Assembly: GCA_020849535.1 (NCBI GenBank)
Contig: JADLGB010000240.1
Location: 1 to 64,000 of the forward strand
Origin: Candidatus Hydrogenedentota bacterium
GTDB taxonomy: Bacteria; Hydrogenedentota; Hydrogenedentia; Hydrogenedentales; SLHB01
Direction: 5' to 3'
DNA: 64,000 nt
The number at the start of each line of letters is the position of its first letter. Position 1 is the first letter of the stretch. The position numbers were made by a program, and so were the translations under genes. The notes under the pieces are model-generated. The model saw nothing but the letters and a program-made list of their open reading frames with translations, ran no database searches and had not been told where the DNA came from. Positions 37,901 to 59,076 of the stretch are shown here, one piece after another.

Positions 37901-37949
37901 GAGTCTGCAAGCCGTTGCAGCGGACACATGTCCGCCTCTCTTGAAGACT

Positions 37950-38107
37950 GGGACACAGGCGAGGGCGCCTGTGCCTCACGCGCTTGCCATGCCTTGGTTG
38001 ATTCTTCCTTTCTTCTGGACCTCGATTAGTATTCGGGCTCCGAGCATTCCAAAACGACCTGGGGAGGGGAGATAGACGTGTGCCACAGGCGCCCTCGCCT
38101 GTGTCCC
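37950..38107. repeat. REPIN-like element, family A, copy 1
   Basis: CACAGGCGAGGGCGCCTGTG (37954-37973) is an eight-base-pair hairpin with an AGGG loop. Its inverse lies at 38084-38103, and the pair is bounded by GGGACACAGG and CCTGTGTCCC. The interior is about 110 bp and noncoding. A second copy lies at 58912-59060. It sits between the kinase gene and the small membrane proteins. Confidence 0.88.
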
Positions 38108-38277
38108 ATGGGGGGTACAGCCCTTTAGTTCTGGCCAGGAAGACGGCTGTTGACGGCAGCTATGCCACTGGAAGCGGCAGGCGCGAAAACGCCGCGAACG
38201 GTTGCAGAGTTAAAGATGATGTGCTATTTTAGTAATGCAATGGCCCCATTCTTTTATGACGGGGAACAGTTTGAACC

Positions 38278-41147: not shown

Positions 41148-42782
41148 GTGAACGCGTCCAGTAATCCGTTTTGCCCAACAGCCGCCTTGTGCGAAGAGCC
41201 AGGTGCACCCGTGCGGCTGTGCGGTCGCGGCTGGATGGTTGTGATACTTCTGATGGCGCTTGCACTACTTCTCCGGTTGTACCGGCTGGATGTCAGTTTC
41301 ACGACAGACGAAGTGCTGACGCTGCGCGGCGCGCAACTTCGCATCCCGGAGATTCTCGTCCACCGCTTCCATCCTCTTTACTATCTCCTCGCACATTTTG
41401 CCCTTTTACTCGGAGACTCCGAAGGATTCCTGCGTTTGCCCAGCGTTCTCGCTGGAGTATTGTGCGTACCGGCCGCCTATGCCCTCGCGCGGGACGCCGC
41501 CGGTGGGTCGGTGGGTTTGCTCGCGGCCTTCCTCACGGCTACTTCTCAGTACAACATCGGGCAGAGTCAATCGGCGCGTTTTTATGCGGTGGTCATGCTC
41601 GGTGGTTTGCTCCTGTCGTGGTTTGTGCACCGCGGGGTCACGCGGGGCGGATACCTCAATTGGGCCGGCGTTGTGTGCACGGGATGGTGGCTAACCATCA
41701 CGCAGCTCACGGCCTTGCCCTACTACGGGGCCATCTTCGCCGGCGCCGGCCTGTGGCTGCTGTTCACCCGGAACATTCCTGGCGCACACGCCAAAGCACG
41801 CAAGCTGGGACTACTCATGCTATGCGCTCTCCTCGGCCTGCTCACGCTTGCGGCCATTGTCGCCGCGCGCGGGCGCCCCACGGTTCTGAATGTCGACCCG
41901 TTTCCGAAGTCTGGATCGGAAGTGGCCACCGACTCAAAGGGAAACACCTACGACTACCAGTTGTATCCGGGGCAATATGTGCAGTTCCTGAGTGTCTTTC
42001 TCCCGCAGGCCGGACTTCTCATCCAGGTCCTGGTGGTGGGCGCGATGTGTGTTGGGTTTGCGGTGCTTTGGCGCCGTCTTCGGTGCCTGGCGACGATCGT
42101 CGCTGCCCAGTTCATGCTACCGCCGCTGCCCTTTCTGTTCCTCCCTTCGAGCCACTGGTATGCGGCGAAGTATTTCTGTAATGTGGCGCCGTTGTTTGTC
42201 ATCCTGACGTCGATTGGAATCTGGGCAGTTATCGAGAGCGCGCTGACCCGGATCGGCGGCGCGGAGCGGCGAGTCACCTCGCGCGCGCTGGTGCTGGCGA
42301 TACTCATGTTGGCACTGACGCCTGGCATTGTCTGGCAACTCTCTTCGTACTACGAACGCTGTAGTCCCGTCGATTGGCGAGGAGTCGGGTCGTATCTGGG
42401 GACTCGTCTCGCACCCGGTGACGTAATTGCCTACACGGATTTGGAGCGCATGAGCAGCAGGTTGAGTCCCGACGCCGAGCCGGTATTTCCGCGGAGCAGC
42501 GTTGCGTTTGATTACTACCTCGTTCAGGGCGCCAAGTCCCGCCGAACAGACGAAGCTCCCATTGACTTCCTGAAGTCGATTCAGAAGTACGAGGCGGGAA
42601 CTGCAGAGCGCATCAAGAGGATGAGGCGCCGTTTCGCGTCGCAGAGGGTCTGGTGCATTGGGGTCAATGAAAAGGACCTAGAGCCGTCCGTTCAGGACGC
42701 GCTCAACGCGCTGCCGGTGGCGGAGACGGTGACTTTCGAGGGATGCACCGTGCGGCAGGTCTTGTACAGGGAAAAACCATGA
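41148..42782 (+). CDS. GT39-type (ArnT/PMT-like) membrane glycosyltransferase 1
   Basis: 544 residues and about ten transmembrane helices. The first outer loop holds DVSFTTDEVLTLRG with Asp-Glu at 54-55, the catalytic position in dolichol/undecaprenyl-phosphate-dependent transferases. QSQSARFYAVVMLGGLLLSW is the typical later motif. It should move a sugar from a polyprenyl-phosphate carrier to a surface acceptor. It starts at a GTG after AGGGGATG. Its stop overlaps the next start (ATGA). Confidence 0.88.
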   Translation: MNASSNPFCPTAALCEEPGAPVRLCGRGWMVVILLMALALLLRLYRLDVSFTTDEVLTLRGAQLRIPEILVHRFHPLYYLLAHFALLLGDSEGFLRLPSVLAGVLCVPAAYALARDAAGGSVGLLAAFLTATSQYNIGQSQSARFYAVVMLGGLLLSWFVHRGVTRGGYLNWAGVVCTGWWLTITQLTALPYYGAIFAGAGLWLLFTRNIPGAHAKARKLGLLMLCALLGLLTLAAIVAARGRPTVLNVDPFPKSGSEVATDSKGNTYDYQLYPGQYVQFLSVFLPQAGLLIQVLVVGAMCVGFAVLWRRLRCLATIVAAQFMLPPLPFLFLPSSHWYAAKYFCNVAPLFVILTSIGIWAVIESALTRIGGAERRVTSRALVLAILMLALTPGIVWQLSSYYERCSPVDWRGVGSYLGTRLAPGDVIAYTDLERMSSRLSPDAEPVFPRSSVAFDYYLVQGAKSRRTDEAPIDFLKSIQKYEAGTAERIKRMRRRFASQRVWCIGVNEKDLEPSVQDALNALPVAETVTFEGCTVRQVLYREKP

Positions 42783-44440
42783 AGGCGTCGGGGAGCTTTC
42801 AAAACGATATGCAACTTGGCGCGCCGGAAGACGAGAAGAGGGGATGCGGGCGTTGGCTGGAAGTGGCGGCGCTTGCTGTCATTTTGATCATTGCGCTGTT
42901 GCTCCGGTTCTACAAGCTCGACGTGAGCCTCTGGAGCGACGAAGTCCTGACGCACAGGGGCGCGGCAGTGTCGTTGTGGGAGGCCATCCGGCACCGGACG
43001 CATTTCCTCTATTATGTGCTGGCTCACCTCAGCCTGATGGGCGACGACAACGAGGTCATGTTGCGCCTGCCCAGCGTGCTTGGCGGAGTCGCGGGTATTG
43101 CGGCGCTGTACGCTCTTGCGCGATGTGTGGCGGGTATCCGAGCCGCATTTATCGCGGCGCTCCTGCTCACCTTCTCCACCTACCACGTCGATCACAGCCA
43201 GGAGGCGCGTTACTACGCCCTGGTCATGCTCGCAAGTGTGCTGATGACATGGGCCTTGTGGCGCGCCATTACCTCGGGCGGATGGAAATCCTGGGCTGCA
43301 TTTGTGTTCGCCACGAATTTCGGGGTGGCCACGCACCTCACCGTGCTTCCCTATCTGTGCGTACTGGTAGCGGCGGCTGCGGCGTGTCTCCTGCTTCAAT
43401 GCCGCAAAGACAGGCGACAGTTGCTTCGACAAGGAAGCGTGCTGGCGTTATGTACCCTGCTCTCGTTTGGGAGCATCGTCCTGTCCATGGCGCTGAGAGG
43501 AGAATCGCCCAATCTGAGCGGCATCGTGCTGGAAGATGCCGAAGATGACGAGGGAGCAAAGCCCCAATGGCGGGACCTGCGCTCGCATGAAGCGGAATTC
43601 CGGCTCTCGCCCAGGGACTACATGCGCTATCTTCGCGAGTTCTCTCCTATTGAGTCTCCGGTACTGCGCGGTCTTCTGCTCATCCCCATGCTGCTCGGTG
43701 CTGCCGTCCTGCTTCGCAGAGCGCCGGTCCTCGCCCTGCTGATTGCCGCGCAGTTTGTGCTCGTTCCATTGCCGTTCTTCTTCATCGACGTGACACACTG
43801 GTTCAACGACCGCTACTTTTGCAGCGTCGTTCCATTCTACAGCCTGTTCGCGGGCGCCGGTCTTGTGACTCTTGTCGAAGGCTGCGGGAAACTTGTCCGC
43901 TCCCTGGCAGGCGAGGGAGATTCGCGATCGCGCTGGGGACGCGTCATCGAATGCGGCGTCATCGCCGCACTTGCCGTCGCCGTGCTGGTGTGCGCCGCAC
44001 AAGAGAATCTGAACCGCTACCGAACGCTGCCGCCACGCGACTGGAAGAAGCTCGCCTCGGATATGTCCAAGACCCTGCAGCCGGGCGATACAGTTGCCTT
44101 CGCCAGTCTGGCCAGCGTCAGGACGCGGGCCCGTGCCGAGAGTGAGCGCAAGTACAAAAGCGCCAATGCGGCGCTGCTCTTTTACCTCCAGCGCGCGATC
44201 GAGGAACGGCGTCCGGGACAGGCGGACATGATCATCGGCACTCTGGACTTGGCGCCTGCGGGAACCACGGATCAGATTGAGGATGTGATGCGCAAATCCC
44301 GGCACCATACGATTTACTTCGTGTCGCGAGAAGAAGAGGGCCTTCCGGCCGAGGTGCAACAGAAGCTATACTCTCTTCCCGTCAAGCAGATCAACCGGTA
44401 CCGGGGACTGAAGGTCCGCATCGTCGCGCCGGGCGCGTGA
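42779..44440 (+). CDS. GT39-type membrane glycosyltransferase 2
   Basis: 553 residues, the same architecture as its two neighbours, with DVSLWSDEVLTHRG (Asp-Glu 54-55) and HSQEARYYALVMLASVLMTWALWRA. The ATG at 42779 overlaps the stop of copy 1 by four bases. The middle periplasmic loops differ strongly from copy 1, which suggests different sugars or acceptors. Confidence 0.9.
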   Translation: MKASGSFQNDMQLGAPEDEKRGCGRWLEVAALAVILIIALLLRFYKLDVSLWSDEVLTHRGAAVSLWEAIRHRTHFLYYVLAHLSLMGDDNEVMLRLPSVLGGVAGIAALYALARCVAGIRAAFIAALLLTFSTYHVDHSQEARYYALVMLASVLMTWALWRAITSGGWKSWAAFVFATNFGVATHLTVLPYLCVLVAAAAACLLLQCRKDRRQLLRQGSVLALCTLLSFGSIVLSMALRGESPNLSGIVLEDAEDDEGAKPQWRDLRSHEAEFRLSPRDYMRYLREFSPIESPVLRGLLLIPMLLGAAVLLRRAPVLALLIAAQFVLVPLPFFFIDVTHWFNDRYFCSVVPFYSLFAGAGLVTLVEGCGKLVRSLAGEGDSRSRWGRVIECGVIAALAVAVLVCAAQENLNRYRTLPPRDWKKLASDMSKTLQPGDTVAFASLASVRTRARAESERKYKSANAALLFYLQRAIEERRPGQADMIIGTLDLAPAGTTDQIEDVMRKSRHHTIYFVSREEEGLPAEVQQKLYSLPVKQINRYRGLKVRIVAPGA

Positions 44441-44464
44441 ACGCGACTGAAAGGGGGAGACATC

Positions 44465-46099
44465 TTGGCGCGTGCCACGGCAGACGGTGCCGGAAGGCGA
44501 TTCCCGAGGCGAAGAGAGATTGCCGGGCTTGCGGCCCTTTTCGTCTTGTCCCTCGTACTGCGGCTGTACAAGCTGGATGCGAGTTTCTGGAACGACGAAG
44601 TCCTCATGCAAAAAGGGGCCTCCTTGCCCCTCATGGAAATCATCTCCCATCGCTTCAACTTTCTCTATTATCTTCTCGCGCACATCTGCCTGAATTGGGC
44701 GGACAATGAGGTCATGCTCCGACTGCCCAGTGTGGTGGCTGGAGTCTTGGGCGTCTTGGCCCTCTACGGACTCACCAGGCAGATCGTGGGCGCTCGCAAC
44801 GGGATCGCCGTGCCCCTCCTCGCCAGCGTTTTGTTGAGCATCTCGGCGTACCATCTCGAACGGAGTCAGGAAGCGCGGTTCTATGCCCTCGTGATCCTGG
44901 CGAGTATCCTCATGACGTGGACACTGTGGAGAGCCTTGGAGTCCCGCAAGTGGACCGCGTGGGCCGCCTTCTGCCTGTCGGCGAACCTGGGCGTCGCTTC
45001 CCAACTCACCGTGTTGCCGTATGTGGGAGTCTTGCTGGCCGCGGCGGGGTTCAGGGTGGCCATCGGACCCGGCGCGGGAACTGCTCGCAGGCGGCTGATC
45101 GGGTTGGCGACCGTTGCCCTGGTGGGCGCCTTGTCTGTTGTCCCCCTTTGCGTATCCGGCATCGCGCAAGGCAAATCGCCGGACGCTTTGATCTCGGGAG
45201 CGGAGGAGTCCGCCGATGATGCTTCCATCGCCCAGCCACCAGGCGGGCCGGATGCATCCTATCGCCTCACGCCTCTGATGTATGCGCGCTATCTGGCTTC
45301 CTATTTGCCAGGGACTAGCGCGGGCGTGCGAATCTTTCTGACAGCACTCATGCTGCTTGGCTCTGCTTCGCTCTGCAAGCGGACGCCGACTGTGGCGTTT
45401 CTACTCATTGTGCAGGTGCTCGTGGTTCCGCTCCCATTCCTCTTTCTTCACATGGAGCACTGGTTCAATGCCCGGTACTTCTGCAGCCTCATGCCGTTCG
45501 TTCCTCTGCTCACCGCCATGGGCGTGCAAGCGGCCGCGGACCTCTTCCGGCGTCTTCTTTCGCACTTACATGAACAAGGTCCTCTGATTGGGCTCTTGCC
45601 ACGCGTCCTGCTTGGTCTGCTTGCGGGTGCGGCGTCGCTCATCTCGTGCAAGGACGCCGCGGACCATTTCAGGGACTTTCCCGAGCATGACTGGAAGTCC
45701 ATGGGCAAGCAGGTGGCTTCGTTGCTTGAACCCGGCGACACTCTTGCCTTCGCGCGATCGCCGATCGTGCATCGAGGCCGCACCACCGCCGTCAGGGAGA
45801 AAGGATATGATTCGCGCAGCAACGTGCTGGAGTTCTATATCCGCCGCTACTTGCGTGATACCGACTCTGGAGATCGCGAGAAGCTGTTCGACACATTGCG
45901 CTTCACGGCGGCGGGATCTCCCGATCAGATTCGGGCCATCACCAATCAATCGGGATCCCATCGCGTGCTCTTCATTTCTCGCAGCGAGGAGAGCCTGTCG
46001 AAACCAGTCCGGAGACTACTTAGTGGGCTCCCGTCCAGTCGCACGGTGTATGTCAAGGGCCTGACCCTGCGCCTGGTCGAGGTGCGCAACGCGCCCTAA
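44465..46099 (+). CDS. GT39-type membrane glycosyltransferase 3
   Basis: 544 residues, with DASFWNDEVLMQKG (Asp-Glu 44-45) and RSQEARFYALVILASILMTWTLWRA. It is closer to copy 2 than to copy 1. The start is a TTG seven bases after GGGGGAG, 24 bp behind copy 2. All three copies probably share one transcript with the sulfatase-like gene 97 bp downstream. Confidence 0.9.
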   Translation: MARATADGAGRRFPRRREIAGLAALFVLSLVLRLYKLDASFWNDEVLMQKGASLPLMEIISHRFNFLYYLLAHICLNWADNEVMLRLPSVVAGVLGVLALYGLTRQIVGARNGIAVPLLASVLLSISAYHLERSQEARFYALVILASILMTWTLWRALESRKWTAWAAFCLSANLGVASQLTVLPYVGVLLAAAGFRVAIGPGAGTARRRLIGLATVALVGALSVVPLCVSGIAQGKSPDALISGAEESADDASIAQPPGGPDASYRLTPLMYARYLASYLPGTSAGVRIFLTALMLLGSASLCKRTPTVAFLLIVQVLVVPLPFLFLHMEHWFNARYFCSLMPFVPLLTAMGVQAAADLFRRLLSHLHEQGPLIGLLPRVLLGLLAGAASLISCKDAADHFRDFPEHDWKSMGKQVASLLEPGDTLAFARSPIVHRGRTTAVREKGYDSRSNVLEFYIRRYLRDTDSGDREKLFDTLRFTAAGSPDQIRAITNQSGSHRVLFISRSEESLSKPVRRLLSGLPSSRTVYVKGLTLRLVEVRNAP

Positions 46100-46196: not shown

Positions 46197-47684
46197 GTGA
46201 TGCGTATCACCTCCATCGTTCCATTGCTGATTCTCTTGGCTTGTGGCCTGATACCACTTGGTTCAGGGTGTGGGGGAGAGACCGCGCCTTCCACGGAAAC
46301 GGCATCGGCTCGCCCATCGCCGGACTCCGCGTCGAACGACGCTCCCCAACCCGCACGCGATTGGACCAATGTGCTTCTGATCTCGGTGGACACCATGCGC
46401 GCCGATCACCTGAGTTGCTACGGCTACAAGCACAAGACCTCTCCGTACATTGATACCATCGCCACAGAGGGCGCCATCTACGAGCGCGTATACGCGCCGA
46501 AGAGTTCCACGTGGCCCGCGCTTGCCACGCTGCATACGTCCTTGTATCCGGTCACACATGGCGTCCGAAACAACGGACTACGTCTCGACAACACACCGGA
46601 TACGCTTGCGGAGGTCCTTTCGGGGGAAGGCTATACCTGTGGGGCCATCCTGACGAACGCCGCGGCCCAGAACTGGGAGGGATTCAGCTACAAAGAGGGC
46701 GTACGAGAGGAACCGGCGGACAAGATCGCCACGGTCACGGCGCGCACCTGGCTGCGCGAGAAGCAAGACGAGAAGTTCTTCCTCTGGGTCCACTACATTG
46801 CGCCGCACAGTCCATGGGCCCCTCCCGAGAAGCATCGCCTGTTCGGTGATCCCACCTACTCCGGAACGCTTACCGGCGGTCAAGACGATATGGCGGCCGC
46901 AATGCTCAGCGAACAGGGCATCAACGACGCCGACCTTGCCCACATCATCAGCCTCTACGATGGAGAGATAAACCTCACCGACATGATGATCGGGATATTG
47001 ATGGAGTCCCTGCGTGAACTGGGGCTTGACCAGAACACCCTCGTCGTCATCACGGCGGACCACGGTGAAGAGCTTTACGAGCATTACCGGTTCCTGCACC
47101 ATCAGGCATCCGTGTACGAAGGCACCCTGCGCGTGCCGCTCATCTACCGCTTGCCGGGAAAGATTCCCGCGGGCAAGAGCGTTCCCGATTTGTGCGGGCT
47201 GATCGATGTCGCGCCGACGATCCTGGGGATTCTCGACGTACCGGTTCCCGCCAGCTACCAGGGAGTCAACACCGAGCCCCTGATGCGCGGCGAAACCGTC
47301 GCACTCGGCCCCGCATTTGGCGAGTGGCGCGATAAGATCCTATTCGTTCGAACGAACGAATACCGTTACATCTACAATCCCCTGAACTACCACCCGCCGA
47401 TGGTGAACAACCAGCGCCTTGCCGGATTGACCGACGCGGAACTGGCAAAGCGGAACGGCATGCCCATCAAAGAGCAAGAGCTGTACAAGGTCTCCGAGGA
47501 TCCCTACGAGCAGAAGGAGATCGCCGCGGACAACGAAGAAGCCATCACCGCCTTGCGTGCTCTTCTCGACGGCTACATGAGCCAATACTCATGGAAGTTC
47601 AACGACGCCACCGACAACCGCATGAAGCAGGAGATCGACCCCCAGACCCGCCAGGAACTCGAGAACCTGGGGTACGTGATGTAG
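46197..47684 (+). CDS. Sulfatase-family (alkaline phosphatase superfamily) lipoprotein
   Basis: 495 residues. The lipobox ends at Cys25 (LGSGC). Metal-site motifs SVDTMRADHLSCYGY and ITADHGEELYEH are present. The nucleophile segment reads SSTWPALATLHTS, so Thr105 stands where classical sulfatases have the formylglycine Cys or Ser (CxPxR). A threonine nucleophile is used by phosphoethanolamine transferases of the same superfamily, so the enzyme may be a transferase or phosphoesterase rather than a sulfatase. It starts at GTG 46197 or ATG 46200 after GAGGA. The tail ELENLGYVM recurs in two fossils downstream. Confidence 0.88.
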   Translation: MMRITSIVPLLILLACGLIPLGSGCGGETAPSTETASARPSPDSASNDAPQPARDWTNVLLISVDTMRADHLSCYGYKHKTSPYIDTIATEGAIYERVYAPKSSTWPALATLHTSLYPVTHGVRNNGLRLDNTPDTLAEVLSGEGYTCGAILTNAAAQNWEGFSYKEGVREEPADKIATVTARTWLREKQDEKFFLWVHYIAPHSPWAPPEKHRLFGDPTYSGTLTGGQDDMAAAMLSEQGINDADLAHIISLYDGEINLTDMMIGILMESLRELGLDQNTLVVITADHGEELYEHYRFLHHQASVYEGTLRVPLIYRLPGKIPAGKSVPDLCGLIDVAPTILGILDVPVPASYQGVNTEPLMRGETVALGPAFGEWRDKILFVRTNEYRYIYNPLNYHPPMVNNQRLAGLTDAELAKRNGMPIKEQELYKVSEDPYEQKEIAADNEEAITALRALLDGYMSQYSWKFNDATDNRMKQEIDPQTRQELENLGYVM

Positions 47685-47753
47685 GCGGCAGCAGGTGAGA
47701 CACGGAAACGCTCCCAGATACGACGAGTCTTCAGGAGAACTGGGTCAGCCCCA

Positions 47754-48482
47754 TTATCCTCTGGGGTTCTGAACGTCTCCGGTCAGGATCTCCGTTACGA
47801 CCTCCTTGAGAAGGTCAGACATGACGTAGAATCGGCGTCCCTTGTCTGTGTCATTCCGTTGGTAGGTGATCGAGAGATCGGCAAGTCTGCTGAGGGCCTC
47901 GCGGAAGCACCAGACGTTTTGGGCGAAGAGGTAGTTCTTTGCGTCGTCTATGGTGGCAAAGTTGTCGACAGGAAACTCGCGGAAAAAGAGAATGTCTTTG
48001 CCGGTGTCGATGCCGGCATCGATAAAGAAGGCCGTAACGCCGGTTGGAGCGCCGTAGAGGAGAGACCATTCCATGACGCTTCGCCCGCGAAACTCAGGGA
48101 GCTTGCCGATGTGGGGATTCAGAATACCGAGACGGAAGCAGTCGATGGCGTTTTGGCGGTAGATAACACTCATGGCGTGCAGTCCAACGTCGGGAGACAA
48201 GCTGCGGAGTTGGTCGAGGTTGTCGCTGAGCTTGGAGAAGTGAAGTCTCGCTCTGACTCTGCGGGTGAACAAGTCACTAAGGAGCCGGATGGTGCTTGTG
48301 ACGCCCATCTTGATAAGGCAACCGTAGGCGTTGGCGGCCAAAAACTTCACTGCGTTCCACCGATTGTTGCATACAAACAGGACAACGTCGACATTGGGAA
48401 TATCTCGGATGCCCTGCCAGATTCGATTGGCAGAGTAAAGGTGGTCGGCAAGCACCACAACGATCAGGCGCTCAGGATTCAC
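47754..48482 (-). CDS. Formyltransferase-family protein
   Basis: About 242 residues. GILNPHIGKLPEFRGRSVMEWSL and TAFFIDAGIDTGKDIL are the Asn-x-His and Asp motifs of the Fmt/ArnA-type formyltransferase fold, which uses 10-formyl-tetrahydrofolate. The C-terminal OB domain of Fmt is absent, which favours a sugar substrate. The GTG at 48482 gives an 11-base overlap with the preceding gene; an ATG at 48521 is also open. It forms an operon with a deacetylase, reminiscent of ArnA and ArnD. Confidence 0.82.
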   Translation of the reverse strand: MNPERLIVVVLADHLYSANRIWQGIRDIPNVDVVLFVCNNRWNAVKFLAANAYGCLIKMGVTSTIRLLSDLFTRRVRARLHFSKLSDNLDQLRSLSPDVGLHAMSVIYRQNAIDCFRLGILNPHIGKLPEFRGRSVMEWSLLYGAPTGVTAFFIDAGIDTGKDILFFREFPVDNFATIDDAKNYLFAQNVWCFREALSRLADLSITYQRNDTDKGRRFYVMSDLLKEVVTEILTGDVQNPRG

Positions 48483-48930
48483 GGTTGACGGCTCTTTCGT
48501 CCAAGAAACGGACGTAGGCACTCAGCGCTGCCCGGTAGCGTTCGAGAAAAGGGCGAAGCAGGTTTGTCGATTGGAAATCTCCTCTCTTCAAGAATAGCTC
48601 GTAGGCGACATGATAGGCGTCAAGGTATCTGAGATCACTGCTGACGCAATGCTCACCGATTCGACTGAGGAGGTGCAGGTATTCGTCCAACTGCTCGGGG
48701 CTCAGCGTGCCTTGGGCGAGACGTGGCACGTACTTGACCATACAGAGCCGGAGCGCCTCTTCGGGGTCGGGTGCCCCTCCGTCATCCGTGACATGGACAC
48801 CTTGTGAAGGTGGGGGCGTCGGCGTTGTCTGCATTTCGAGGGACTTGCGGAAGCTGTCGAGTTCAGCTCGCCGTGCGCATAGGCGGCGGCGAATTGCTCC
48901 AGCCACATGCTCGCTGAAGTCAAGCGTCAT
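48472..48930 (-). CDS. Unknown 152-residue protein between deacetylase and formyltransferase
   Basis: Mostly helical, soluble and without motifs I recognise. The first half is charged with a Pro/Thr linker (QTTPTPPPSQG). The second half (LSPEQLDEYLHLLSRIGEHC, RYLDAYHVAYELFLKRGDF) looks like a helical bundle. The start overlaps the deacetylase stop (ATGA) and the end overlaps the formyltransferase start, so it is certainly part of this translational unit. Confidence 0.72.
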   Translation of the reverse strand: MTLDFSEHVAGAIRRRLCARRAELDSFRKSLEMQTTPTPPPSQGVHVTDDGGAPDPEEALRLCMVKYVPRLAQGTLSPEQLDEYLHLLSRIGEHCVSSDLRYLDAYHVAYELFLKRGDFQSTNLLRPFLERYRAALSAYVRFLDERAVNRES

Positions 48931-50051
48931 GGGCTCTTTGCCAGTCTTGGGGTGAGCAAGTCGAGGTGCCGCGCCATTTTCTTCAGGTGTACGAACTCGA
49001 TCCTCTCGCCGAACCGGTCCTGCATATGCTTCAAGATGCTGAAGATACGGTCAAAGTCCGACGATTTCACCAAATCCTTCGTGTGGTTTTCGAATACGAG
49101 AAACGCTGGGGTTGCGCTGTGGTCGAACCGCTCGACTACGAGATCGATGGCCTTGAGCCAGTGATGCAGCGGTCGGCGAACGCTAAAATCCATAACGAAG
49201 TCGCTCCTGGACCATATGCCGAACGGGCTGAGGGGCGCCTCGAACGGATCCGTGGCGCGGCCAGAAAGCCGGTGGCGGCAGGCCGTTGCGAAATAGCGTG
49301 CGCCCCGAACGAGCGGCTTCACGACCTCGCGAAGGCGAGTGATGGGTGCCTGCATGCCAAGGACCTTGGCAAGGGGAACGCTCTGGGTTGGGATCTCAAC
49401 GAGCCCGTGCGGGTGTGCGGACAGCTTTCTTGCGTCGTCGAGGTCAGGGTAATAGGGTTCGTAGGGGCACTCCAGCGCGGTATAGTCCAAAGCAATGCAC
49501 TCCCCGCGATAGACGAGGCCAGCCACGATAGAAACATCGAGCTTGATGCCGTTTCGGATCAACGCCTCGATCAAGGCACGGCTGGGAGGCCCGAGACCCC
49601 AAGACCCCGAGCGGAATGAGACGAGATCCTCCCTGGGCACGAATTGCGCCAGGAAAGCGATACCGTCTCGGATGAATCCGTCTATCTCGTCCGGCGAATA
49701 CTTTGTAATATCCCATCGCCGATTCAGGCGCCAGCGCCTTCCGTCAAATTCGGCGCCATGCCATTGTGGATGAGTATGAAGTTGAACGTCATAGCCCCGC
49801 CGCGCCATTTCCCCGACGGCCTTGCGCCATAGGGCGGACTGTCTGGAAATGTCTTCGTACCGGTCCTGGTACCGTTCGAACGCGATCTGCTGCATGACCT
49901 CAACGTTAAAGGTCCCGGTGACACCCAATGAGTCGTAGCAATCCATGAGCCGTAGAGCGGTATCGAATTGAAGCGTGCCCACATCACCGAGCCCATTGCC
50001 CCGAAGCTCCCAGTCATCCGAAAGCGCAATCCATATACTCTTCTCAGCCAT
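48927..50051 (-). CDS. NodB-like polysaccharide deacetylase
   Basis: About 374 residues with no signal peptide. LSDDWE supplies the base and metal-binding aspartates, QLHTHPQWHG the two metal histidines, and SFRSGSWGLG the Arg-containing motif 3 of NodB-homology (CE4) enzymes. It resembles the WalW-type branch found in surface-polysaccharide loci. GGAGG lies seven bases before the ATG. A cytoplasmic enzyme of this kind would act on a nucleotide- or lipid-linked sugar. Confidence 0.85.
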   Translation of the reverse strand: MAEKSIWIALSDDWELRGNGLGDVGTLQFDTALRLMDCYDSLGVTGTFNVEVMQQIAFERYQDRYEDISRQSALWRKAVGEMARRGYDVQLHTHPQWHGAEFDGRRWRLNRRWDITKYSPDEIDGFIRDGIAFLAQFVPREDLVSFRSGSWGLGPPSRALIEALIRNGIKLDVSIVAGLVYRGECIALDYTALECPYEPYYPDLDDARKLSAHPHGLVEIPTQSVPLAKVLGMQAPITRLREVVKPLVRGARYFATACRHRLSGRATDPFEAPLSPFGIWSRSDFVMDFSVRRPLHHWLKAIDLVVERFDHSATPAFLVFENHTKDLVKSSDFDRIFSILKHMQDRFGERIEFVHLKKMARHLDLLTPRLAKSP

Positions 50052-50112
50052 CGACGGCCTCCACCAAGTAATGCACAAGCAGGGTCAGGAGTAGATTCGG
50101 AAACCGACGCAC

Positions 50113-50247
50113 TTCGCGAATGCACTCTTGGGAATCCGAGGTACGCGTGTACTCATATGCTGGCTCAAAGAAGTCTGCCCGGCGGCTTCTTCGCACCGCC
50201 ACGTGGTGCGGGAAACCGGAGACAACACTGCGTACTATCCTTCTCAT
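50113..50247 (-). pseudogene. Decayed start of a REP-associated tyrosine transposase (RAYT), copy 1
   Basis: Minus-strand text RSVVSGFPHHVAVRRSRRAD then FFEPAYEY aligns with the RAYT/IS200-like opening (VVPGxPHHVTQRGNRRxxVFF.xxDY). Only about 45 codons remain, and the metal and tyrosine regions are gone. A related fragment lies at 52620-52754 in the same context. Confidence 0.72.
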
Positions 50248-50328
50248 GAGGCCAATCCTACACAGGGCAGACGAGAGTGATCAAGGAATCCTGTGCTGCC
50301 CGAACTGTGAGGCGGATTGTGTGGGCAA

Positions 50329-50394
50329 GCGAATGAGGAAGGAAACCGACGCACAGACCAGCCAAGAACTCGAGATTCTCGGCTACGTGATGTA
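50329..50394 (+). pseudogene. Fossil of a sulfatase C-terminus, copy 1
   Basis: Reads KETDAQTSQELEILGYVM then TAG, against QEIDPQTRQELENLGYVM at the end of the intact gene (47684). Similarity continues past the stop for about 60 bp (AACGAGTCTTCAGG in both). There is no upstream reading frame. Confidence 0.78.
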
Positions 50395-50440
50395 GCAGCA
50401 GGGGGGAGAAGCGGAAGCTTTCCCAAACGCAACGAGTCTT

Positions 50441-50522
50441 CAGGAAAACAGGGACTGGGAAGACAGAGACTGTTCCAAGCGAAGTGAGTCTTCGAGCGGA
50501 GACGGGACTGTCCCTGTTTTAC
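50441..50522. repeat. Inverted AAAACAGGGAC repeat
   Basis: AAAACAGGGACTG at the left and CAGTCCC/GTCCCTGTTTT at the right are inverted, about 50 bp apart. Similar words lie at 28745-28790. It borders the RAYT and sulfatase fossil. Confidence 0.6.
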
Positions 50523-51120
50523 CGGTTATTCAACCACCTATAGTTCTAAACTGCGGGGTCATCCATGAAGGAGGCACACCGCACGCTTTGCCTCTTGAAT
50601 TATGCCTTTCATGGATGTCCCCGTGTTGTCGTGAATTGCCGTCAGTACAAGTGGGCGGAACCCGTGGAATGGGTGGGCGCAATCCCTCGGAATCGCCCGC
50701 CGGGATTGCTGGGAATAGGCACGGAGGGTTGATTGTTACTCTTGTGGCCCTTCTTACCAATGTTTATATGAACGCTTGGAAGTTATGGGAAGGAGATCTG
50801 TCGAAGAGTCTAGCGGATGAGTTTGGCGCGTCAACTGGGGGTGTTAAGGTTCGAAGGCGCTATTCCGGCTACCTACAAGGTATACCTCCTGTCCTCGAAC
50901 AGTCGGGTCTGTTTGGGAGCGGAAGAGAGCCTGGGTTGTGTGTCGGTACCGGAAATCAAGTTTGTGGATGACCCGGATTCGGAAACGAGCGTGGTCAACG
51001 AGAACCTTGGTCTGTCGCGATCGTAGCCCGGTCTGGTGTGATGTCTTGCCTAATTCGAGAGAATAGCTGCAGTCTAACAGGATGTCCTACTCTGTACGCA
51101 ACCACCTGGAGGGGGAATCA
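50523..51120. other. About 600 bp without a recognisable gene
   Basis: Open frames of up to 127 codons exist on the plus strand (for example 50588-50971) but lack a ribosome site and family-like sequence, and amino-acid usage is erratic. It may be a degraded gene or a long leader of the Wzz-type gene. Confidence 0.5.
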
Positions 51121-52584
51121 ATGACGAACAGCCCATCCGCTTCAAATGACGATACTCAGTCCAAATCCGCCCCTGGAGCCGAAGCGAGCAAGCCTTCCGG
51201 TTCCAATCGTAAGAGGGACGCCTCGCCACGGATTCCCATTTTCCTGATTACAGCGTTAGTCGCGGGAGTCCTTTTGCTTCCGGCGGCGTGGTTGCTGATG
51301 CCGGCAACGTACACGGCGACGGCGGAGATTCGTTTCCTCTCCGTCCGGCCTCGGATCATGGATACCGGCGAACAAACCAGCGTCAGTGGGTCGTATGAGA
51401 AGTTCGTCAGCACTCAGGTCACGCTGATCACGGGTAGTACCATCATGCAGCGGGTCCTGAACGACCCCGCAGTATCGGCAATTCCCCAAGTGGCTCAAGC
51501 GGCCGATCGGCTTACCTTCCTTCAGGAGCACGTCCGCGCCAGACAGAAGTCGGGAACGGAACTCGTTCAGTTGGAATGTTTCCTTCCGGACCGGGATGCG
51601 GCTCTGACGATACTGGACGCCGTCAAGGATGAGTATCTTGACTATGCCTTGGGCCAGGAGGCGTACGCTGGCGGTGAGCGCCTGAGAATCCTGGTGACGG
51701 AGCGCGATTCGCGTCAGAAGGACTTGGAGCTGTTGCTTAACCAAGTGAACGCGCTGCAAGCGAAGTTGGGTCCACGTGCTGCAGACGGGCCAAACGAGAT
51801 CGGCATGTATCGGGCGAAACTTGTTAAGGCAGAAGAAGACCTTTATGCGTTGGGGCTGCGACGCTCCAAACTTGAAGCACAACTGGCGCGTTTGAAGGGA
51901 GCGCCAAACGATTCTGAAAGTGCTGGAGAAGATGCCTCAGACGAGACGTTCACCGATCCCGAGGTGGCTACGGATCCGCGGGTTGCAAGTCTCCTGGGGG
52001 CACACGCATTAGCCAAGCTGGAGTATGCGAAGACGTTGGCGAAATACCCCGATGGGAATCCTCAATTGCAGCAGTTTGAAGTGGACATTCGGGTGATTGA
52101 GGCGCAAATCGAAGAAACGAAACGGACGGTACGCCACGAAGTAAGTCAGTCCAAGATGTTGGCATTAGCGGACCTTGAAGTCGAAAACCGCGAGGCGACG
52201 GCCCGCGTAGACATGTACAGGACACGTCTTACCGGGTACATGCAAAATGTCGATGAGCAACGGGGAGATTTGACAAAGCTGCAATCACTCGAAGATAGCG
52301 TGGCCGAACGACGGACTCTGATCAGTGAGCTCAGCCGGCAGATCACGGATCTCAGTCTCGAATCGAAGGCTCCTGCACAAGTCTCTCTTGCTTCAGCGCC
52401 CTCGGTCCAGGCCGAACCCAGTTATCGGGCGAAGCTGGCTGCGCTTATACTGGCGTGCGTCGCATCCGTGGGGCTGGGTCTCGTAGTGTCTATGGCAGCA
52501 AAGAGGCGCAATCCTCGGCGACACTCCTCGCCCAAGGAAGCGCACGAGAGCGTGCGTACCGGCAGTTACTCTATAAGCAGTTGA
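51121..52584 (+). CDS. Wzz/GNVR-type polysaccharide chain-length protein
   Basis: 487 residues. The first transmembrane helix (IFLITALVAGVLLLPAAWLL) follows a charged N-terminus. The periplasmic part has the Wzz opening (TYTATAEIRFLS) and long coiled coils at about 190-410. The second helix (LAALILACVASVGLGLVVSMA) follows a Pro-containing segment (APSVQAEPSY). There is no kinase domain. It should control the length of an exported polysaccharide made by nearby genes. GGAGGGGGAATCA lies directly before the ATG. Confidence 0.9.
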   Translation: MTNSPSASNDDTQSKSAPGAEASKPSGSNRKRDASPRIPIFLITALVAGVLLLPAAWLLMPATYTATAEIRFLSVRPRIMDTGEQTSVSGSYEKFVSTQVTLITGSTIMQRVLNDPAVSAIPQVAQAADRLTFLQEHVRARQKSGTELVQLECFLPDRDAALTILDAVKDEYLDYALGQEAYAGGERLRILVTERDSRQKDLELLLNQVNALQAKLGPRAADGPNEIGMYRAKLVKAEEDLYALGLRRSKLEAQLARLKGAPNDSESAGEDASDETFTDPEVATDPRVASLLGAHALAKLEYAKTLAKYPDGNPQLQQFEVDIRVIEAQIEETKRTVRHEVSQSKMLALADLEVENREATARVDMYRTRLTGYMQNVDEQRGDLTKLQSLEDSVAERRTLISELSRQITDLSLESKAPAQVSLASAPSVQAEPSYRAKLAALILACVASVGLGLVVSMAAKRRNPRRHSSPKEAHESVRTGSYSISS

Positions 52585-52619
52585 GCATCAGCAACTGGGG
52601 CAAGGTTAAGGACCGCTCA

Positions 52620-52754
52620 GTTCCGCGCATACTGGGTCAAAGCTCCCCAATACGCGTGCCGGTCAGCGGGCGTCTCGAAGACATCCACTTGCTGTTGCCG
52701 GCGTCGCGTCACATAGTGCGGGCATCCAGGATAGCCATGCGTACTACCTGTCTC
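52620..52754 (-). pseudogene. Decayed start of a RAYT transposase, copy 2
   Basis: Minus-strand GYPGCPHYVTRRRQQQVDVF followed by ETPADRHAYWGALTQYAR matches the RAYT N-terminal domain, including the conserved PGxPHHVTxRGNxRxxVF pattern (second His replaced by Tyr). The frame stops soon after and no start codon fits. The surrounding 300 bp resemble those of the first copy. Confidence 0.78.
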
Positions 52755-52850
52755 ATAAGGCTGTCCTGCGTTGGCCAGACGAGAATGATCCACTAGGAAT
52801 CCAGCAGGTCCCGAATCTTGTAGTAAATTGTGCGGACAGGCCTTGAAGCT

Positions 52851-52895
52851 GGAAATCGACCCACAAACCTGCCAGGTACCCAGAAATCTCGTAGG
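52851..52895 (+). pseudogene. Fossil of a sulfatase C-terminus, copy 2
   Basis: Reads LEIDPQTCQVPRNLV, still close to QEIDPQTRQELENLG in the intact gene, but frameshifted afterwards. The sequence after it (GCGCTCCCAGGTGCGTTGAAG) still resembles that after the other two copies. Confidence 0.65.
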
Positions 52896-53021
52896 GTTCT
52901 CGCACGTCATTTGAAGTCAAAGCGCTCCCAGGTGCGTTGAAGGCCGGGATTTCCGAGGGTACCATAGCGTTGTGCGGGGAAGCGCCCCTGTGAACGAAAC
53001 CAGACTCCGGAGGGGAAGCTC

Positions 53022-54691: not shown

Positions 54692-54716
54692 TACGGTTAG
54701 AGCAGTTTAGACGAGC

Positions 54717-54828
54717 ACCTTCGGGGCAGGGTGAGATTCCCGACCGGCGGTTATAGCCCGCGAGCGCGAATACGCGCAGGAACCGGTGAAATTCCGGTGC
54801 CGACGGTAAAGTCCGGATGGGAGAAGGT
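54717..54828 (+). promoter_or_regulatory. FMN riboswitch (RFN element)
   Basis: P1 is ACCTTC pairing with GAAGGT at the two ends. Inside are the hallmark blocks GGGCAGGGTGAGATTCCCGA, CCGGCGGTTATAGCCCGCGA, CCGGTGAAATTCCGGTGCCG and ACGGTAAAGTCCGGATGGGA. It controls the following rib genes by binding FMN. The downstream hairpin GTCCCGA/TCGGGAC (54901-54930) covers the only plausible ribosome site before ribD, so control may act on translation. Confidence 0.97.
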
Positions 54829-54936
54829 GTTACGCGCCCGCCATGAGGGGGAGGTGCATCCGTTTCCCGGAAGCGCCCCTTCATTCCGGCACGTAAGCAG
54901 GTCCCGAAGGTGAATTCCGTCTGTCGGGACTTAATA

Positions 54937-56073
54937 ATGCCGGAACAAACCGCCACAGTATACCAGCCGGACCCGAGCGACGAGACGCACATGCGCCGCG
55001 CCTTGGAGCTTGCCGCCAAGGGCAAGGGCCGAACCAGCCCGAATCCCGCCGTGGGCTGTGTCATAGTGCGCGATGGCCGTGTGATCGGCGAAGGCTACCA
55101 CGAACGCGCCGGCGAACCCCACGCGGAAATCAACGCCATCGAGGACGCGAGGGGGGATATCCAAGGCGCGACCCTCTACGTATCCCTCGAACCATGCTGC
55201 TTCCACGGCCGCACGCCGCCGTGCACCGATACCATCATTCGTCACAGGCCCAGACGCGTTGTGGTTGCGATGCACGACCCGAATCCGCGAGTCTGCGGAG
55301 AGGGGATCTTTGCGCTCCGCCAGGCGGGCATTCGTGTCGATGTCGGAGTTCTGGAAGAGGAAGCACGGCGTCTCAACGAGGCCTTCGTGAAGTTCATGAC
55401 CCGGGGTCTGCCCTTTGTCATCGCAAAGTGCGGAATGTCTCTCGATGGCAAGATCGCCACGCGCACCGGAGACTCCAGGTGGGTGACTGGCGAGGCTTCC
55501 CGCCGCTTGGTCCACGAGCTGCGCAACGAAGTCGACGCCATTTTGGTCGGCAGCCGCACTGTCATGATGGATGACCCGAGCCTCACCACCCGTCTCGACG
55601 AGCGCGATGTCAAAGATCCAATACGTGTCATTGTAGACGCTGACCAGTACCTTGATACGGACCGGCGCGTCTTTCAGCTCAAGAGTGGCGCGCCCACCTG
55701 GGTGGCGGTTCCTGATGATCGCTCGTTCGAGGGGGCTGACGAAGTTCTGCGCATCCCGAGTGGTAAGGGGGGGCTCGATCTGACACTACTCATGAAGGAA
55801 CTTTCCGCGCGGGATATCGTATCTGTCCTTATTGAAGGCGGCGGCTCGACATTGGCATCGGCCTTTGAGTCATCTATCATTGACAAGGTGATGTTCTTTG
55901 TCGCTCCCAAGATCATCGGTGGTCAGCATGCCATTACGGCAGTGGAGGGCGAGGGGGCTGCTAGAATGGCGGATGTTATACGCTTGGAGCGCATGACTGC
56001 CCGTCCAGTAGGTGAAGACATTCTGATAGAAGCTTATGTAATGCAAACTATTCCTGGCGAGAAGGGGGACTAG
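54937..56073 (+). CDS. ribD: Bifunctional riboflavin deaminase/reductase
   Basis: 378 residues. The deaminase domain has the zinc motif HAE with PCCFHGRTPPC (about 60-100). The reductase domain follows (IAKCGMSLDGKIATRTGDSRWVTG, VLIEGGGSTLASAF). It converts the first pyrimidine intermediate of riboflavin synthesis in two steps. The ATG at 54937 lies six bases after the hairpin; a GTG at 54910 has no ribosome site. Confidence 0.97.
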   Translation: MPEQTATVYQPDPSDETHMRRALELAAKGKGRTSPNPAVGCVIVRDGRVIGEGYHERAGEPHAEINAIEDARGDIQGATLYVSLEPCCFHGRTPPCTDTIIRHRPRRVVVAMHDPNPRVCGEGIFALRQAGIRVDVGVLEEEARRLNEAFVKFMTRGLPFVIAKCGMSLDGKIATRTGDSRWVTGEASRRLVHELRNEVDAILVGSRTVMMDDPSLTTRLDERDVKDPIRVIVDADQYLDTDRRVFQLKSGAPTWVAVPDDRSFEGADEVLRIPSGKGGLDLTLLMKELSARDIVSVLIEGGGSTLASAFESSIIDKVMFFVAPKIIGGQHAITAVEGEGAARMADVIRLERMTARPVGEDILIEAYVMQTIPGEKGD

Positions 56074-58848: not shown

Positions 58849-58911
58849 CGAAGAAAGGGAAGATGTGTCCGCAGATTCGCGCAGATGCTAGAGAATCAAT
58901 ACGTGAATTCA

Positions 58912-59060
58912 AGACACAGGCGAGGGCGCCTATGCCACACTTCTACCTCCTATGAGATATTCATTCCAGCATTTGAGATCCTTGGGGCAGGTCTGGGGTG
59001 GAAGAAAGAGATTCGCAGGCCGGGCAAGCGCTTGTGGTAACAGGCGCCCTCGCCTGTCTC
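58912..59060. repeat. REPIN-like element, family A, copy 2
   Basis: The same ends as copy 1: CACAGGCGAGGGCGCCTATG at 58915-58934 (one change) and ACAGGCGCCCTCGCCTGTCT from 59040. The interior aligns with copy 1 when reversed (CGCTTGCC and TTCTTCC words shared). It lies just before the PHP gene start. Confidence 0.88.
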
Positions 59061-59076
59061 TAGATTGAAACATCCC

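Follow-up and report, generated by a model that had tools for sequence, protein, structure and literature searches.

The window, by which we mean the whole 64,000-nucleotide stretch analysed, contains an intact sulfatase-family gene (46197-47684, forward strand) encoding 495 amino acids (PF00884, E=9e-45). The homologue in a congener is 45% identical in amino acid sequence, with the C-terminal tail conserved. Ahead of the sulfatase gene there are three tandem genes for PMT_2-like glycosyltransferases (41148-46099), two of which are 66% identical at the DNA level across 415 bp; on the congener contig, a single PMT_2-like gene precedes the sulfatase gene. The tail of the sulfatase gene is present at three positions: within the gene itself (copy A) and, decayed, in copies B and C, for which the intact gene is either the source or a paralogue of the source. 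A three-gene operon with a sugar N-formyltransferase-like gene lies between A and B, and a wzz block lies between B and C. Downstream of the locus, an FMN riboswitch (RF00050, 117.9 bits) is located at 54713-54832, just upstream of a ribD-like gene (54910-56073).

Repeated segments and the RAYT-sulfatase junction

We compared A, B and C by pairwise local alignment, with 500 dinucleotide-preserving shuffles as the control. Copy A (47615-47744, forward strand) comprises the final 22 sulfatase codons and 60 bp of 3' flank. It aligned with the right part of copy B (50326-50453, forward strand; 22 decayed codons, the stop codon and 3' flank) at a score of 134 (shuffle mean 24, maximum 43) and with 77% identity across 130 bp. 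This similarity begins 22 codons ahead of the sulfatase stop codon, extends ~60 bp beyond it and ends 10 bp short of the formyltransferase ORF. Because a dispersed repeat covers part of the right flank of B (50418-50523), the A-B match in that part is less specific than that in the coding tail. B (50102-50381) aligned with C (52611-52891) at a score of 125 (shuffle maximum 40), and A aligned with C at a score of 56 (shuffle maximum 44). Copy C (52611-52940) is a second copy of unit B, about 68% identical to it, and its homology to B ends at ~52940, within the sulfatase 3' flank. The right part of C (52843-52940, forward strand), a decayed sulfatase tail with the beginning of the 3' flank, is supported by the A-C alignment and by a model constructed from A and B without C, which recovered 52843-52939 from the whole 7.8-Mb genome (E=8e-4). 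The tail stays in frame up to the stop codon in B and is decayed in C. All three pairwise scores exceed the shuffle maxima and C was found with the A+B model; the repeated pieces noticed in a preliminary description of this DNA are therefore genuine.

As the draft genome comprises 336 contigs and repeats are prone to misassembly, an assembly artefact, or else chance similarity, had to be considered. However, the alignment scores are far above those of the shuffles, and the copies differ by 23-32%, a divergence that misassembly of a single sequence would not produce. Moreover, A, B and C all lie within one 85.6-kb contig, and a second assembly matches the wzz part. We regard an artefact or chance similarity as highly improbable.

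To the left of the sulfatase tail, both B and C carry an inverted, decayed start of a RAYT gene, as the preliminary description had proposed; the likeness that it saw among all three segments holds for the sulfatase tail, whereas A is without the RAYT part. RAYTs were first described in PMC2817692. The congener (G001) carries an intact RAYT gene (L018, 239 amino acids), whose product matched B with residues 1-28 (50247-50164, E=1e-6) and C with residues 10-43 (52730-52629, E=2e-7). In B, the decayed and frameshifted first ~50 codons of a TIRYT-like RAYT occupy 50085-50247 (reverse strand); the upstream region with the 5' terminus of the element (50248-50312, reverse strand) was aligned to intact congener elements (L018 and L087). 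In C, the decayed RAYT start is at 52600-52752 and the upstream region with the 5' terminus, delimited by DNA alignment, at 52753-52820 (both reverse strand). In both copies, the RAYT portion comprises some 45-50 codons from the start of the gene and the upstream terminus. The core of the HUH tyrosine transposase (Y1_Tnp, NHVH), present in L018, is deleted in B and C, and both are remnants only. In B, the RAYT DNA homology passes through the untranslated leader to the 5' terminus of the element at about 50310, and the sulfatase tail starts at about 50324, leaving a gap of ~14 nt. Clearly, B and C contain the same fused junction and share descent.

TIRYTs are RAYT-like transposases with flanking inverted repeats of the consensus GGGG[AT][CG]A[CG] (PMC6006769). 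The L018 protein contains Y1_Tnp (PF01797, E=1.5e-13) and one NHVH motif (residues 59-62). Its N-terminal part matched NCBIfam REP_Tyr_transpos just under the cut-off, and it scored 76.3 bits, near full-length over the model, against the curated NCBIfam family NF047646 (cut-off 80). RAYT elements are intact in the congener, with terminal repeats AAATCAGGGACAGACTACGAATTT. The terminal inverted repeats of the intact G001 RAYT read approximately AAATC(A/G)GGGACAGACTACG, and one of them, GGGGACAG, matches the TIRYT consensus. L018 is flanked on the left by AAATCAGGGACAGACTACG (three Gs) and on the right, as the reverse complement, by AAATCGGGGACAGACTACG, which places terminal repeats at both ends.

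One contig of the same genome (C218) and one of the congener (C526) contain further truncated 5' ends from this RAYT family, none with a sulfatase tail attached, so that RAYT remnants are normal debris here. On another contig of the same genome (C255), several RAYT 5'-end fragments are arranged in a row near the contig end (L082, 3886-4178), and an intact-looking RAYT lies at the opposite end.

Two palindromes are located behind the tail of copy B, REP1 (50446-50522; folding z=-3.4), with perfect terminal inverted repeats of 11 bp, and REP2 (50553-50623; GGGGTCATCCATGAAGG...CCTTTCATGGATGTCCCC; folding z=-5.5). Each folds better than 200 of 200 shuffles. REP1 belongs to a dispersed repeat, with copies of 90-92% identity over 62-63 bp on C149 of the same genome and on C256 and C501 of G001; the 14-mer GGGACATCCATGAA of REP2 recurs in L082, on another contig. 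Words resembling REP2 (TTCAGGGACATCCATG and TTCAGGGATATTCATG) are present on both sides of the congener wzz block (L071, 8930-8968 and 10830-10890). A second dispersed repeat occurs in the window at 37949-38108 and 58903-59061 and in L077, with many copies on contig C236 of the same genome.

Distribution of the fused junction

Uniqueness of the junction was assessed by BLAST and covariance-model searches. Plain BLAST with B failed to detect C and was thus insufficiently sensitive on its own; for this reason, the models R1 (junction) and R2 were built. Within its own genome, R1 matched B and C only. The fused RAYT-start/sulfatase-tail junction was absent from 60 relatives (one genome per species) in BLAST and covariance-model searches, run with stricter filters by which weak matches can be lost. 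R1 matches in these relatives were RAYT starts without a sulfatase tail. Among the weak model matches, L136 was rejected as an ordinary RAYT start without a sulfatase match, and L135, L138 and L140 were rejected because they resemble neither RAYT nor any protein of the window. No fused unit lies beside the sulfatase gene or the wzz gene of the congener. A search of 47.7-53.0 kb for further pieces of a second sulfatase or for glycosyltransferase remnants yielded only the tails. In the literature, we found nothing specific on RAYT with sulfatase in these phyla or on cassette recombination. RAYT remnants are common debris, but, as judged from the genomes searched, one fused to a sulfatase tail is peculiar to this place.

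The unit might be a composite mobile piece whose ends were the 5' terminus of a RAYT and the REP-like palindrome that follows the sulfatase stop codon; the transposase would have taken the sulfatase tail with it and inserted a second copy close by. Unit B indeed spans from the truncated RAYT start to a palindrome with an end, AAAACAGGGAC, resembling the RAYT terminal repeat AAATCAGGGAC; B and C are similar in extent despite differing flanks, and truncated RAYT 5' ends recur elsewhere. However, copy C has no palindrome and ends within the 3' flank, on its left side the unit ends inside the RAYT gene rather than at a palindrome, and there are just two copies, both inside 2.5 kb, with no third copy in the genome or the 60 relatives. 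Such a composite origin appears unlikely. A related reading, in our view unlikely, would be transduction of host sequence by the RAYT, with the palindrome behind a host gene serving as a surrogate end and the sulfatase tail moving with the 5' terminus; if true, these transposases would have a new means of remodelling genomes.

Genes between the copies

The A-B interval contains three genes on the reverse strand, a deacetylase-like gene (48927-50051), a gene in the middle for a small protein, P152 (48472-48930), and the formyltransferase-like gene (47754-48521; PF00551, E=1.5e-10). The start of the deacetylase-like gene was placed at ATG (50051) in preference to TTG (50078); this gene has no Pfam match, and its identity comes from reading of the sequence. 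P152 showed no significant match in Pfam or NCBIfam. Formyltransferase homologues with 36-41% identity adjoin deacetylase homologues in distant phyla. The gene order around P152 is the same in L131 and L132; the order deacetylase-P152-formyltransferase recurs in one Gemmatimonadetes and one Chloroflexi genome, and an Acidobacteria genome has deacetylase and formyltransferase together. Within the order, the operon is present in 1 of 68 genomes, the exception among the others being a deacetylase homologue of the congener, 29% identical and without a formyltransferase. From this distribution, the operon probably entered the lineage by horizontal gain, the alternative being loss elsewhere.

The wzz block in the B-C interval (50760-52585) is composed of a conserved leader (50760-51081) and a gene for a kinase-less Wzz-like chain-length protein (51082-52584, forward strand), delimited by the match to a block on the congener contig C162 (80% identity in DNA, 76% in amino acids). 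In the congener, the block has a sialidase-like gene on one side and an endonuclease/phosphatase-family gene on the other. The syntenic sialidase locus of the genome studied here (82% identity over 4.5 kb, 77% over the sialidase gene) has a pyrophosphatase-like gene where the congener has wzz; therefore, wzz has different addresses in the two congeners. The Wzz of the window is 56% identical in amino acid sequence to the N-terminal part of a 746-aa Wzz-kinase encoded on contig C26 of the same genome; the kinase domain of this paralogue is absent from the window Wzz. A version of the C26 paralogue with two stops, seen in the search stretch, was rejected, because reading of the ORF gave an intact 746-aa Wzz-kinase gene. 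This Wzz-kinase gene belongs to an exosortase locus (L074; EpsH, PF09721) that also encodes PEP-CTERM-like proteins.

In the preliminary description, the copies were viewed as homologous ends round exchangeable surface-glycan modules. In favour of this view, the formyltransferase operon and the wzz gene are indeed enclosed by A, B and C. None of the other genomes searched in the order contains the operon, whose gene order is conserved in distant phyla; in the congener, the wzz block is located elsewhere. The content between the copies varies among genomes. However, the longest identical runs among the copies are 14, 9 and 9 nt, and runs of this length would generally be too short for efficient RecA recombination. 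The unit was found neither elsewhere in the genome nor in the 60 relatives, wzz and the sulfatase gene of the congener are at separate loci, both without the unit, and the RAYT half is missing from A. No alternative cassette was seen at this site with one genome per species, and the same ends around different cassettes were not found in the 60 relatives or elsewhere in the genome. Since the exact runs are short, the unit is in no other genome and there is no alternative content, use of A, B and C as recombination ends at present is unlikely, and the view that glycan cassettes are exchanged by recombination at these copies is, to our mind, quite improbable. Of the two observations that the preliminary description named as jointly refuting its view, one was made and one was not: the unit was found nowhere else, but it does flank genes that vary. 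Nothing supports a link between the unit and the movements of the operon or the wzz block.

Origin of the junction and comparison with known systems

On balance, B and C appear to be two fossils of one rearrangement, namely insertion of a RAYT into a copy of the sulfatase gene, followed by a single copying of the junction and by decay. A TIRYT-kind RAYT (an HUH tyrosine transposase with terminal inverted repeats) would have inserted in reversed orientation ~22 codons before the stop codon of the sulfatase copy, fusing its 5' terminus to the sulfatase tail and ruining that copy. One further copy of the junction, including the sulfatase 3' flank, would then have been made, the remainder of the RAYT element and of the sulfatase copy lost, and both copies of the junction eroded through substitutions and frameshifts. 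By separate events, the formyltransferase operon and the wzz block would have come to this tolerant intergenic zone.

The insertion account is consistent with the shared junction in B and C, with the stop of the RAYT homology at the terminus of the element and the sulfatase tail following so closely, with the intact, repeat-flanked RAYT elements of the congener and the truncated 5' ends on C218 and C526, with the reading frame kept in the tail of B, and with the restriction of the unit to this place. Tandem sulfatase paralogues occur in a relative (G011), which makes an extra sulfatase copy plausible here. On the other side, the left flanks of B and C are unlike each other, as are the right flanks, so that there is no sign of a simple tandem duplication spanning a larger segment; either the short unit alone was copied or the flanks were replaced. 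Of the repeated segmental copying suggested in the preliminary description, copying of the fused junction is supported. In addition, the RAYT gene was lost at a similar codon (~50) in both copies, which simple decay does not explain, and the rest of the presumed second sulfatase gene was not found.

The scar looks like ordinary mobile-element debris rather than a functional system for the exchange of surface-sugar genes. Debris by itself is minor; the case documents the fusion of a RAYT-type terminus to a host gene and the copying of both together. It sits where the operon probably entered the lineage and where wzz changed its address between congeners.

The RAYT half resembles TIRYTs, or RAYT subclass 2.1 (PMC6006769), in PF01797, NHVH and terminal inverted repeats, as judged from the congener copy. 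It differs from them in that B and C retain only ~50 codons and the 5' terminus, frameshifted and fused to the tail of a host gene. The C-terminal helix-turn-helix expected in most members of the subclass was not found by Pfam in intact L018 (E<=0.01), so the assignment is one of resemblance rather than filing. REPINs, BIMEs and other miniature elements are mobilised by RAYTs (PMC3116915). REP1 and REP2 are likewise short, palindromic, dispersed and intergenic, but their copies here are few and their tie to RAYT is that of a candidate; the fused RAYT-sulfatase unit is too low in copy number to qualify. In cassette exchange at glycan loci, such as capsule or O-antigen loci with conserved flanking genes, glycan-related genes likewise lie between similar sequences, whereas here the similar sequences are short and diverged and occur at no other place.
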